Shown in pieces: positions 25,471 through 58,063 of a DNA stretch of 64,000 bases. Position numbers and translations under genes: made by a program. The notes under the pieces were generated by a model that was not told where the DNA came from, searched no databases, and saw only the letters and a list, made by a program, of their open reading frames with translations. Source of the stretch: Kiloniellaceae bacterium. GTDB taxonomy: Bacteria > Pseudomonadota > Alphaproteobacteria > Kiloniellales > J153. The first letter of the stretch is position 1, and each line of letters begins with the position of its first letter. The DNA lies in the NCBI GenBank assembly GCA_021776135.1, contig JAJFGL010000002.1, positions 124,001-188,000 of the forward strand, read 5' to 3'.

Positions 25471-25508
25471 TTCCCTCCCCCCTTGCGGGGGAGGGTTAGG
25501 GTGGGGGG
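25471..25508. repeat. Palindromic CCCTCCCC repeat, copy 1
   Basis: A palindrome of the form CCCTCCCCC-ttgc-GGGGGAGGG followed by TTAGGGTGGGGGG. The same unit occurs twice, head to head, at 56992-57094. It lies in the 230-bp typA-ampG gap and, being just after the typA stop, could act as a transcription-stopping or mRNA-stabilising hairpin. Confidence 0.75.
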
Positions 25509-25533: not shown

Positions 25534-27366
25534 CTAGCTGGCATCCTTCAGGCGGCTTTGCTTTTTGCGGTCGTGGGGGCAAAGCAAGGCCTTGCGCAGA
25601 CGGATCGACTTGGGGGTGACCTCGACTCTTTCGTCGTCGGCGATGTAGGCGATGGCCTGTTCCAGGGACATGACGCGCGGCGTGGTCAGGCGCACCGCTT
25701 CGTCCTTGCCCGAGGCGCGCATGTTGGTCAGTTGCTTGGCCTTCAAGGGGTTGACCTCAAGATCGTTGCCGCGGCTGTGTTCGCCGATGATCATGCCTTG
25801 ATAAACGGCGGTGCCGGCATTCACGAACATGAAGCCGCGGTCTTCCAGGTTCCACAGGGCATAGGGGACGGCGGTGCCCTGCCCGGTGGAAATCAGGACG
25901 CCGGTGCGCCGGCCCTGGATCGGCCCCTTATAGGGCGCGTAGCCGTGAAAGACCCGATTTATGATTCCGGTGCCCCGCGTCGAGGTCAGGAATTCGCCAT
26001 GATACCCGATCAGCCCGCGCGAGGGCGCCAGGAAGCCGATCCGCACCTTGCCGCCGCTGGAGGGGGCCATGCCGGTCATCTCCGCCTTGCGGGCGCTCAT
26101 ACCCTCGACCACGACGCCGGCGTGTTCCTCGTCCACGTCGATCTGCACTTCCTCGATCGGCTCCAGGCGCTGGCCGGTCTTGGGGTCGTCCCGGTACAGG
26201 ACGCGCGGGCGGCTGATGGAAAGCTCATAGCCTTCGCGGCGCATGGTCTCGATCAAAACTCCAAGCTGCAGCTCGCCGCGCCCGGCGACCTCGAAGGCGT
26301 CCCGGTCGGCGGTTTCGCTGACCTGTATGGCGACATTGCCTTCTGCTTCGCGCATCAGGCGGGTGCGGATCATGCGGCTGGTCACCTTGTCGCCCTCGCG
26401 CCCGGCCAGGGGCGAATCGTTGATCGAGAAGGTCATGGCCAGGGTCGGCGGGTCGATGGGCTGGGCCGGGATGGCGCCGTCGAAATCGATATCGCAGATG
26501 GTGTCGGCGACGGTCGCTTCGGCCAGGCCCGCGATGGCGACAATATCGCCCGCTTCGGCCTCTTCGACCGGCACCCGCTTGAGGCCGCGAAAGGCCAGCA
26601 GCTTGGTCAGGCGTCCGCTCTCGACCGGATCGCCGAACTGATGGCGCGCCTTGATCGCCATGTTCACCCGCGCGACCCCGGAATGAATCCGCCCGGTCAA
26701 GACCCGGCCCAGATAAGGGTCGGCCTCCAACAACGTGACCAGCATGGCGAAGGGTTTGTCGCGCTTGCCCTTGGGCGCCGGAACATGGCGGACGATCAAA
26801 TCGAACAGCGGGTTCAGGTTGTCGCGCGGATCGTCCAGATCCTCGATCGCCCAGCCCTGCTTGGCCGAGGCGAAGATCGCCGGAAAGTCGAGCTGTTCCT
26901 CATTGGCGCCCAGAGCGTCGAACAAATCGAAGACCTTGCTGTGGGCGCCGTGGGGGTCGGCGTCGGGCCGGTCGGCCTTATTGATGACCACAATGGGTTT
27001 CAGTCCGCGCGCCAGCGCCTTCATGGTCACGAACTTGGTCTGGGGCATGGGCCCCTCGGCGGCATCGACCAGCAGGACCACGCCATCGACCATGGACAGG
27101 ATGCGCTCGACCTCGCCGCCGAAATCGGCGTGGCCGGGGGTATCGACGATATTGATGCGGACGCCGTTCCAGGTCACCGCCGTGCACTTGGCCAGGATCG
27201 TGATTCCGCGCTCGCGCTCCAGATCGTTGCTGTCCATGGCCCGTTCAACGAGCTGCTCCTTTTCGTGAAAGGTGCCCGATAGGCGCAGGAGTTGATCGAC
27301 CAGGGTGGTCTTGCCGTGATCGACATGGGCGATGATCGCCACGTTGCGCAGCGCGGAGGATGTCAT
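25534..27366 (-). CDS. typA: Translational GTPase TypA/BipA
   Basis: From the ATG at 27366, 610 residues, the family's usual length. G1 [11 protein letters not shown] (about residues 9-19), the switch [17 protein letters not shown]3 [14 protein letters not shown] and G4 [10 protein letters not shown] are intact, followed by domain II and the C-terminal TypA-specific region ([20 protein letters not shown]). TypA is a ribosome-associated GTPase of the EF-G class needed for 50S assembly and growth under cold or other stress. An upstream in-frame ATG (27405) is less likely because the conserved N-terminus begins at [14 protein letters not shown]. Confidence 0.97.
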
Positions 27367-27432
27367 GGTCTTGGACTCTTCGTCAGATGTTGGTCTGGGC
27401 CGCATGGGCGACCCTAGAATGAATACGTTAAC

Positions 27433-55883: not shown

Positions 55884-56813
55884 TCACACTCTCTCGATGA
55901 TTTTTTCGCCGAACAGGCCTTGGGGCCGGAACAGCAGGAACACCAGCGCCAACACATAGGCGAACCAGTTTTCGATCGCGCCGCCGACCAGGGGGCCCCA
56001 ATAAATCTCCGCTATCTTCTCACCGACCCCGATGATGAGGCCGCCGACGATGGCGCCGGGCACCGAGGTGAAGCCGCCCAGGATCAACACCGGCAGCGCT
56101 TTCAAGGCGATCAGGGACAGGCTGAACTGAACCCCGCTTTTCGCGCCCCACATGATGCCCGCGACCAGGCCCACGATTCCCGCGACCGCCCAGACGATGA
56201 CCCAGATGGTTTTCAGCGGAATACCGACCGATAGGGCTGCCTGATGATCGTCGGCGACCGCGCGCAGGGCCCGGCCGATGCGCGTGTAGTGGAAGAAAAC
56301 CGCCAGCACCGCGACCAGTATGGCGCCCGAGGCGGCGGCGAAGATGTCGAATTCGTTCAGCAGCACGCCGTAGATTTCGAAAGAGGCATCGGGAATGCCG
56401 ATATCCAGGGGCTTGACGTTACTGCCCCACACGGTTTCGCCCAGGCCCTGAAGCACGAAACTCAAACCGATGGTGGCCATGAACAGGACGATGCCTTCCT
56501 GGTTCACCAGGCGCCGCAACATCAGCCATTCGACCATATAGGCCAGCACCACCATGACGGCCACGGTCAGGACCAGCGCCAGCCAGATGGGAACCGAGTG
56601 TTCCATCAGGCCGACCAGGGTCAGGGCCGCGAACAGCACCATCACCCCTTGAGCGAAGTTGAAGACGCCGGAGGCCTTGAAGATGAGTACGAAGCCCAGG
56701 GCGACCAGGGAATACATGACCCCGGTCAAAAGCCCGACAATCACCACCTCGACGAAGAAAGCCGGCGAGTCCACCATGTCCAGAAATGGCGCGATGAAAA
56801 TGTCAAAGAGCAT
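55884..56813 (-). CDS. livH: LIV-type ABC transporter permease LivH
   Basis: A 309-residue permease with about eight membrane helices. MYSLVALGFVLIFKASGVFNFAQGVMVLFAALTLVGL near the N-terminus, FMATIGLSFVLQGLGETVWG, and GRALRAVADDHQAALSVGIPLKTIWVIVWAVAGIVGLVAGIMWG in the middle are diagnostic. It is the permease partner of LivM. A 455-bp repeat-filled gap separates it from livG upstream, although both are on the same strand. Confidence 0.95.
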   Translation of the reverse strand: MLFDIFIAPFLDMVDSPAFFVEVVIVGLLTGVMYSLVALGFVLIFKASGVFNFAQGVMVLFAALTLVGLMEHSVPIWLALVLTVAVMVVLAYMVEWLMLRRLVNQEGIVLFMATIGLSFVLQGLGETVWGSNVKPLDIGIPDASFEIYGVLLNEFDIFAAASGAILVAVLAVFFHYTRIGRALRAVADDHQAALSVGIPLKTIWVIVWAVAGIVGLVAGIMWGAKSGVQFSLSLIALKALPVLILGGFTSVPGAIVGGLIIGVGEKIAEIYWGPLVGGAIENWFAYVLALVFLLFRPQGLFGEKIIERV

Positions 56814-56867
56814 GACGAAGCGTCCCCTGATTCCGGTTCATCCGGCGCCCCATTCCGCCGTCATCCC

Positions 56868-56935
56868 GGACCCCGATCCGGGATCTTTGCTGAGAGCCGG
56901 ACTCCTTGCGGCCAGAAGATCCCGGATCGGGGTCC
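56868..56935. repeat. GGACCCCGATCCGGGATCT inverted repeat
   Basis: A perfect 19-bp inverted repeat (56868-56886 and 56917-56935) with a 30-base loop. Sequences of this kind (GTCATCCCGGACCCCGATCCGGGAT) are dispersed in many alphaproteobacterial genomes. The right arm overlaps the outer repeat that starts at 56933. Confidence 0.85.
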
Positions 56936-57226
56936 ACTGCTGTCCGGTTTAACTTAGCGGACCCGCCCGAAGGGGTTCCTGGCGCCGCGAGCCCCCCCAC
57001 CCCAACCCTCCCCCTCAAGGGGGGGAGGGAGAAAAAGACAGCGCTCTTCCACTTTCTCCCTCCCCCTTCGACGGGGGAGGGTTGGGGTGGGGGTGACAGC
57101 TTTGCCAAGTGTTCGCGGACCCCGAAGACACGCCGCTTTCCTGTCCATAACTTCGCGGGATGCTTGGGCGCGCGTGGAATCGATTCCTTGCCGGTTACCA
57201 ACGCAATTAAACCGGACAGCAGTGGA
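56933..57226. repeat. Outer 20-bp inverted repeat pair enclosing the palindrome pair
   Basis: TCCACTGCTGTCCGGTTTAA at 56933-56952 has an exact complement at 57207-57226. The arms enclose a 254-bp core that holds the large CCCTCCCC palindrome pair. The layout is that of a small mobile element of about 294 bp, but no target duplication is obvious. Confidence 0.8.
56992..57094. repeat. Head-to-head pair of CCCTCCCC palindromes
   Basis: Two copies of the palindrome seen at 25471-25508 stand in opposite orientation (about 56992-57034 and 57053-57094), each an inverted repeat in itself, and together forming a still larger one with an 18-base centre. On RNA this could fold into a very long GC hairpin. 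Confidence 0.85.
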
Positions 57227-57268
57227 TCGGGGTTCTGGATGACGGCTCTTGGCTCATGGGCGGGCGCT

Positions 57269-58063
57269 TTAATCATGGCTGACGCCCAGGTAAGCATCGA
57301 TGACCTCGTTGTTGGCGCGCACCGCGTCGGGGGTGCCGTCGGCGATCTTGCGGCCGTAATCCAGCACCACGACCCGGTCGGAGATATCCATGACCACGCC
57401 CATGTCGTGTTCGATCAGGGCGATGGTGGTGCCGAACTCGTCATTCACGTCCAGGACGAAGCGGCACATGTCCTCTTTTTCCTCGACGTTCATGCCCGCC
57501 ATGGGCTCGTCGAGGAGCAGCAGGTCGGGTTCCGCCGCCAGGGCGCGGCCCAGCTCGACCCGTTTTTGCAGGCCGTAGGGCAGGCGCCCGACCGGGGTTT
57601 TGCGGATCGCCTGGATTTCCAGGAAATCGATGATCTTCTCGCAAAACTCGCGGTTCTGGATTTCTTCCCTAAGCGCCGGGCCCCAGTAGAGCGCGTGCCA
57701 CAGGAAGTTGCGCTTCATCTTCAGCATCCGCCCGGTCATGATGTTGTCGAGGGTGCTCATGCCCTTGAACAGGGCGATGTTCTGAAAGGTGCGCGCGATG
57801 CCTTGGCTGGCCGCGTCGTGGGGGCGCATGCGTTTACGCTCGGTCCCCTTGAAGGCGATGGTGCCTTCCTGGGGGTGATAAAAGCCGTTGATGACATTGA
57901 GCATGGAGCTTTTCCCGGCGCCGTTGGGGCCGATGATCGCCAGGATTTCATGCTCCTTGATCTCGAAGCTGATGTCGTTGAGCGCCCGCACGCCGCCGAA
58001 GGACAGGGAAATGCCTTCGACCCGCAGCAGGGTTTCGCCGATTTTTCGTTTATATTCCGCCAT
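57269..58063 (-). CDS. livG: LIV-type ABC transporter ATP-binding protein LivG
   Basis: A 264-residue ABC ATPase: LLRVEGISLSFGGVRALNDISFEIKEHEILAIIGPNGAGKSSMLNVINGFYHP (Walker A near residue 41), ARTFQNIALFKGMSTLDNIMTG (Q-loop), LPYGLQKRVELGRALAAEPDLLLLDEPMAGMNVEEKEDM. The LPYG signature and AGMN segment are diagnostic of LivG. It lies 12 bp after the acyl-CoA synthetase gene. Confidence 0.94.
   Translation of the reverse strand: MAEYKRKIGETLLRVEGISLSFGGVRALNDISFEIKEHEILAIIGPNGAGKSSMLNVINGFYHPQEGTIAFKGTERKRMRPHDAASQGIARTFQNIALFKGMSTLDNIMTGRMLKMKRNFLWHALYWGPALREEIQNREFCEKIIDFLEIQAIRKTPVGRLPYGLQKRVELGRALAAEPDLLLLDEPMAGMNVEEKEDMCRFVLDVNDEFGTTIALIEHDMGVVMDISDRVVVLDYGRKIADGTPDAVRANNEVIDAYLGVSHD

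Follow-up and report, generated by a model that had tools for sequence, protein, structure and literature searches.

A probable composite MITE of IS4-family origin within a REP pair at the livG-livH junction of a Kiloniellaceae bacterium

Introduction

Why should a branched-chain amino acid transport operon that is otherwise tightly packed be split by a stack of nested repeats, and do these repeats bear on the expression of the genes downstream? In the window (the whole stretch of DNA analysed, 64,000 nucleotides in length), 455 bp separate the livG stop from the livH start (56814-57268), while the neighbouring gaps in the list of open reading frames measure 3 bp (livM-livH) and 12 bp (livG to the AMP-binding gene). 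According to Pfam matches and the same list, the operon lies on the minus strand in the order AMP-binding enzyme, livG, livH, livM, binding protein, second ABC ATPase and AMP-binding enzyme. A preliminary description of the sequence had read the island in the livG-livH gap as the product of small elements that were successively inserted into one another.

Materials and methods

The genome containing the window is designated G000, and the other three genomes of its genus G001, G002 and G003. Searches with the island yielded 95 matches in the genome, 42 of which were grouped by coordinates into 37 places; 40 of the 93 first-look candidates were scored. The MITE end was scanned in the named genomes (at least 118 stretches). 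Ends beginning CC... were replaced by ends beginning CA..., in view of the TC found at the boundary of the Rhizobium sp. CIAT894 copy. Rfam matches in the region 56000-58000 (26, mostly to miRNA models) all lay under the gathering score of their family and were discarded.

For the comparison of junctions, livG was searched in 38 genomes, giving 31 close matches, and 30 loci were examined. The livH gene was next on the same strand in 23 of these 30 loci (own genome included) and was not found in the examined flank of the remaining 7. Start codons of livH were picked by script.

Flanks were compared for 23 elements with both ends, comprising 13 from the genus, 7 complete IS and 3 MITEs from elsewhere (one of the two copies in locus L083 was used). 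The duplication score was the better of the values for 9 or 10 bp, in observed and control pairs alike; at 9 bp only, the window copy scores 3/9.

Results

All three inverted-repeat systems that had been noted between livG and livH were found (Table 1). The one given earlier as a 19-bp pair is present but comprises 20 nt, with 100% complementarity (56868-56887 / 56916-56935). A second, described as a 20-bp pair enclosing 254 bp, corresponds to the MITE ends together with flanking REP sequence and spans 34 nt at 82%, with 254 nt between its arms (56919-56952 / 57207-57240). The third consists of head-to-head CCCTCCCC units (56994-57034 / 57053-57093; arms as in Table 1). A lone CCCTCCCC unit (25487-25507, one mismatch) was also seen, as described, beside typA, the adjoining gene (25534-27405) encoding TypA. 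The longest exact inverted match in the gap was 21 nt, compared with 12-16 nt in the top 8 of 40 dinucleotide shuffles, and the 21-mer CCCCCACCCCAACCCTCCCCC (at most 3 mismatches) occurred three times in the window against 0.01 expected. A four-run G-quadruplex motif was noted on the G-rich strand of all three CCCTCCCC units (56992-57014, minus; 57073-57093, plus; 25487-25508, plus); the window holds 11 such motifs in total.

Table 1. Coordinates of the features at the livG-livH junction (positions in the window)
Feature	Position	Strand	Basis or remark
livH, permease	55884..56813	-	BPD_transp_2
Outer REP pair, larger part	56857..56934	.	20-nt perfect inverted repeat; includes left target duplication
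Target duplication, left copy GATCGGGGTC	56925..56934	+	9/10 identical to right copy
Putative 290-bp MITE of IS4/DUF4372 element	56935..57224	-	genome repeats, eight G000 copies with both ends, 5' similarity to IS
MITE terminal inverted repeat CACTGCTGTCCGGTTTAA	56935..56952	+	exact, 18 bp
Inner head-to-head CCCTCCCC pair, REP/BIME-like, MITE passenger	56992..57097	.	41-nt arms at 85%
MITE terminal inverted repeat, other end	57207..57224	-	exact, 18 bp
Target duplication, right copy GATCGGGGTT	57225..57234	+	9/10 identical to left copy
Outer REP pair, smaller part, severed by MITE	57235..57246	.	joins 56934 in reconstructed empty site
livG, branched-chain amino acid ABC transporter ATPase	57269..58063	-	ABC_tran + BCA_ABC_TP_C; LivG top NCBIfam match, below its cut-off

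The 290-bp element combines the features of a MITE, being short, bounded by terminal inverted repeats and a duplication, devoid of a transposase gene, present in several copies and sharing its ends with an autonomous element. When it is removed, the two parts of the outer REP pair join into a 90-bp element with 30 of 35 positions matching between its ends, and comparable pairs of about 80 bp were located at five further places of the genome (79-86%). This pair is of the class CGTCATCCCGGA...TCCGGGAT and BIME-like. Its REP motif GTCATCCCGGACYYGATCCGGGAT occurs at 21 genome sites with at most 3 mismatches, some of them forming opposed pairs about 57 bp apart, and the reversed pattern at none under the same threshold. 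Like REP and BIME sequences, the outer and inner parts of the island are short GC-rich palindromes that form head-to-head pairs and are dispersed in the genome; the one Y1_Tnp (RAYT-type) gene of this genome, however, lacks such a motif. Specifically, neither CCCTCCCC nor CATCCCGG was found across the 3.3-kb locus of the single PF01797 gene in G000, leaving movement of the inner pair by a RAYT unsupported. A RAYT gene flanked by the same REP is not demanded of every REP, and the result weakens only the claim of RAYT-driven spread.

The search for the island's components elsewhere, which the preliminary description had proposed, located parts of the MITE or the inner pair at no fewer than 37 places of the genome. 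Among the 37 grouped places, 27 have MITE sequence beyond the inner pair and 10 the inner pair only. Elements with both ends that were examined within the genus numbered 13, with eight of 287-291 bp, one of 188 bp (C34) and one 32-bp remnant (C9) in G000, two (286 and 290 bp) in G002 and one (302 bp) in G001. Near-full-length copies are 80-82% identical to the window copy, and shorter matches reach 88%. With at most one mismatch, the MITE end was present in 3 of 21 genomes (G000, G001 and G002) and absent from G003 and 17 genomes outside the genus. The remnant on contig C9 (locus L218, 175-206) is made up of two directly abutting MITE ends in back-to-back arrangement, and no matching duplication flanks it.

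The inner CCCTCCCC pair sits at the same position in 11 of the 12 full-length MITEs of the genus (G000, G001 and G002); it is deleted in C34 and altered in C45. Outside the genus it was matched in 21 of 54 genomes, and among the matches listed, those outside the genus stay in or near the pair, one of them, in G057, extending to query position 232. Such confinement indicates that the inner pair exists without the MITE, and its single position in nearly all copies indicates that it was acquired by the founder of the family and was carried into the liv operon as cargo. No MITE was seen with an empty site for the pair. The 188-bp copy C34 was considered as such a site and rejected: by eye, ten bases of the pair are kept and a four-base match, CCAA, lies at the break, as expected of a deletion.

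To the first ATG, the livG-livH junction measures 35 bp in G002, 25 bp in G001 and 30 bp in G003. The gap is at most 77 bp in 20 of 22 relatives, the exceptions being G012 (152 bp) and G032 (483 bp), and the order of livG and livH is the same as in the window. The island was found at none of the 22 other readable junctions, the gaps of G012 and G032 being different sequence as judged by eye. The comparison of spacing, likewise proposed earlier, thus gave short junctions in the genus and no conserved island in distant relatives. In G032, which belongs to another family, the 483-bp gap (L269) holds other repeat-like sequence, so the livG-livH junction may have received unrelated repeats more than once.

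At least 10 convergent pairs of MITE ends were found within 3 kb (one cross pair left out), six of 1272-1274 bp and four short (143 bp twice, 218 and 331 bp, as CC-end lengths). Complete IS of about 1.27 kb in other alphaproteobacteria have the same ends as the MITE (0-1 mismatch), are flanked by 9-bp duplications and favour REP-like palindromes as targets. Five of the six long IS were translated: L111, L119 and L149 encode an identical 403-aa protein (P0001), and the longest frames of L139, which is frame-shifted, and L143 do not exceed 283 aa. P0001 comprises DUF4372 and DDE_Tnp_1, scores above the NCBIfam cut-off for IS4-family transposases, and is 71.2% identical to plasmid proteins annotated 'IS4-like element ISRel1 family', including that of R. 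etli p42a, and 72.6% identical to the 'IS4 family'-annotated protein of locus L208 (Rhizobium sp. CIAT894). Its YREK motif, for which the spacing is Y-2-R-3-E-6-K, was read by eye as LYKRRWAIELFFRWVK. The partner IS has CACTGCTGT ends, 1270-1273 bp between the CA ends and 9/9 duplications in 6 of 7 copies, within the ranges tabulated for IS4Sa (ends CA------T, 1150-1750 bp, direct repeats of 8-10 bp; Table 1 of PMC2266710).

The livG-side end of the MITE is the counterpart of the 5' end of the complete IS, and the ~90 bp beyond it (the first ~110 bp) resemble the same stretch of the IS. For nine of the 12 MITE copies, the similarity to at least one of two IS sequences exceeded that of every one of 500 shuffles, the best value being that of G002_C23 (48; shuffle maximum, 28). 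The window copy exceeded all 500 shuffles with one IS and was reached by 48 of 500 with the second; in G000_C46, G000_C4 and G001_C54, neither IS gave a value above all shuffles. In the CIAT894 locus, both 18-bp ends are exactly those of the MITE and the duplication is 9/9, with a target that is not palindromic (2/9); in the ISRel1 locus of R. etli p42a (L206), the right end only was seen. Unlike these ISRel1-like elements, the MITE is 290 bp long, has no transposase gene and carries the CCCTCCCC pair.

No transposase matching P0001 was detected in G000-G003 (E 0.001 in G000), and the MITE copy looks, from these searches, old and stranded; in the window genome it should now be immobile. A transposase distant from P0001 could have escaped the search. 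Within the same family, the search gave a broken relative in G005 (pieces of 79% and 76%, plus a fragment), one of 33% in G007 and a fragment in G008.

Direct flanking repeats (at least 7/9) were seen in 18 of the 23 elements; in the controls they accompanied 88 of 506 mispaired pairs and 20 of 5000 random positions. Mispaired flanks pass the test in 17% of pairs because the targets resemble each other. In 17 of 23 elements the sequence around the duplication formed a palindromic target (at least 7/9), as against 60 of 506 mispaired flanks and 15 of 5000 random positions; the window copy reached 6/9, and a further two copies 2/9. Because several of the IS copies are nearly identical, the elements are not independent of one another, although their sites are. 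Inverted flanks (at least 8/9) accompanied 4 of 23 elements and neither kind 1 of 23, with 52 of 506 mispaired and 1 of 5000 random positions in the controls. The four elements with inverted flanks are the MITEs L003, L004 and L220 and the complete IS L119 (8/9 or 9/9). Their flanks look as if the element lay between both arms of one REP pair, or as if they were hybrids arising from recombination. The transposase could at times join the two arms of an extruded REP cruciform, dropping the loop; recombination between copies also explains these flanks, given the 52 of 506 mispaired flanks that are inverted.

The preference for REP palindromes recalls ISRm22, an IS4-family element of S. meliloti, all copies of which are described as occupying REPs, placed at the axis of the palindrome and in part with hybrid duplications (PMC1525189), and which has been assigned to IS4Sa, with conserved target arms (PMC2266710). 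Compared by published description, both cases represent IS4-family REP targeting, but the direct repeats reported for ISRm22 are 6 bp (PMC1525189), as opposed to 9-10 bp here. The single match of P0001 on S. meliloti pSymB (38.8%) may be ISRm22. This cousin IS (locus L207, S. meliloti 1021) has ends CAGGGCTGTCCGGGGAAA near 206 and 1505 and is flanked on both sides by CCCTCTCCCC/GGGGAGAGGG repeat sequence, which suggests that the relative may target the CCCTC class of palindromes.

Discussion

The island is very probably a composite MITE that was inserted in a REP pair, moved by an ISRel1-like IS4-family transposase and carrying the CCCTCCCC pair as cargo. In the lineage of the window, a 90-bp REP pair would first have settled between livG and livH. 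Later, an ISRel1-like IS4 transposase (DUF4372 plus DDE domain) would have mobilised a 290-bp internally deleted derivative of its own element, which would already have held the head-to-head CCCTCCCC pair and would have entered one arm of the REP pair close to the axis of the palindrome, with duplication of about 10 bp. From sequence comparison, we infer which type of transposase mobilised the element and in what order events unfolded within the founder MITE. Nesting by insertion, as proposed at the outset, is borne out by the short junctions, the 9/10 duplication and the closure of the REP pair once the MITE is taken out; the number of arrivals has to be revised from three to two, the REP pair and then the composite MITE, given the constant place of the inner pair.

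Three independent small elements inserted in succession at the locus are very improbable, and this reading is mostly refuted. In its favour, the inner pair occurs alone both outside the genus and, within this genome, at about 10 of 37 places; its one position in 11 of 12 full-length MITEs from three species, however, argues that it was present in the founder, and the sole copy without the pair (C34) retains ten of its bases in a deletion-like arrangement. An artefact of assembly, in which a repeat was misplaced between livG and livH, is hardly credible, even with an assembly of 70 contigs and a repetitive element: the REP pieces flanking the MITE fit each other and bear its duplication, livG and livH follow the order seen in relatives, and a divergence of about 18-20% between the window copy and the remaining near-full-length ones makes a collapsed repeat unlikely. 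With the composite MITE as the preferred reading, there is some small likelihood that it serves as a REP vehicle, the CCCTCCCC pair having spread here mainly as cargo, with REP pairs multiplying without a RAYT and piling up inside other REPs; the idea draws on the 27 of 37 grouped places that have MITE sequence beyond the pair, although C34 has lost the pair and C45 has it in altered form, and on the L087 MITE described below.

The island might also be a selected regulatory element, such as an attenuator or an RNA-stability element, that sets the livG:livH ratio. The RNA of the whole gap is predicted to fold strongly (-264 kcal/mol, z -9.1), as are the inner pair (-88.8) and the REP part (-50.1), and REPs are able to protect upstream mRNA (PMC12306157). 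We nevertheless regard a selected role as highly unlikely, as the other three genomes of the genus lack the island at this junction, the gap is short in 20 of 22 relatives, and the same MITE occurs at many unrelated places. No terminator-like site was found within the island; the one such site detected lies inside livH and does not exceed the number in shuffles (1 against a mean of 0.6). The REP edge lies 22 nt from the livG stop, outside the range of fewer than 16 nt within which REPs have been reported to lower translation in E. coli (cited in PMC12306157). By eye, an AGGGGA motif precedes the livH ATG. The preliminary description expected an effect on read-through to livHM; we predict that transcription continues into these genes and that the island would cause, at the most, a degree of polarity or some shielding of the upstream mRNA.

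Each part of the island is of a known kind, and REP targeting by the IS4 family is already published for ISRm22. Among the papers listed for MITE, IS4 and REP elements of alphaproteobacteria and rhizobia in a mostly open-access literature, none showed this MITE. Within that scope, the REP-targeting IS4 MITE described here, which lies in a transporter operon and has a REP pair for its cargo, seems to represent a new family of MITEs. In the passages of PMC10132070 that matched the text 'ISRel1', the element named was ISRel10. An odd stack of repeats can now be read as a history, documented by element ends, a target duplication and the short junctions of relatives and pointing to a partner of a named type, and a REP-targeting IS4 derivative that itself bears a REP pair is added to the known elements. 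The genus also offers a natural pair of liv operons, with and without the island, for a comparison of expression.

Short elements with the same ends were also noted in other alphaproteobacteria (L087 858-1188, and L083 4225-4367 and 4653-4795) and at locus L164 (184-401). The two copies in L083 are identical, as are their flanks, and the 329-bp MITE in L087 by eye contains REP-like palindromes and is itself inserted in one.
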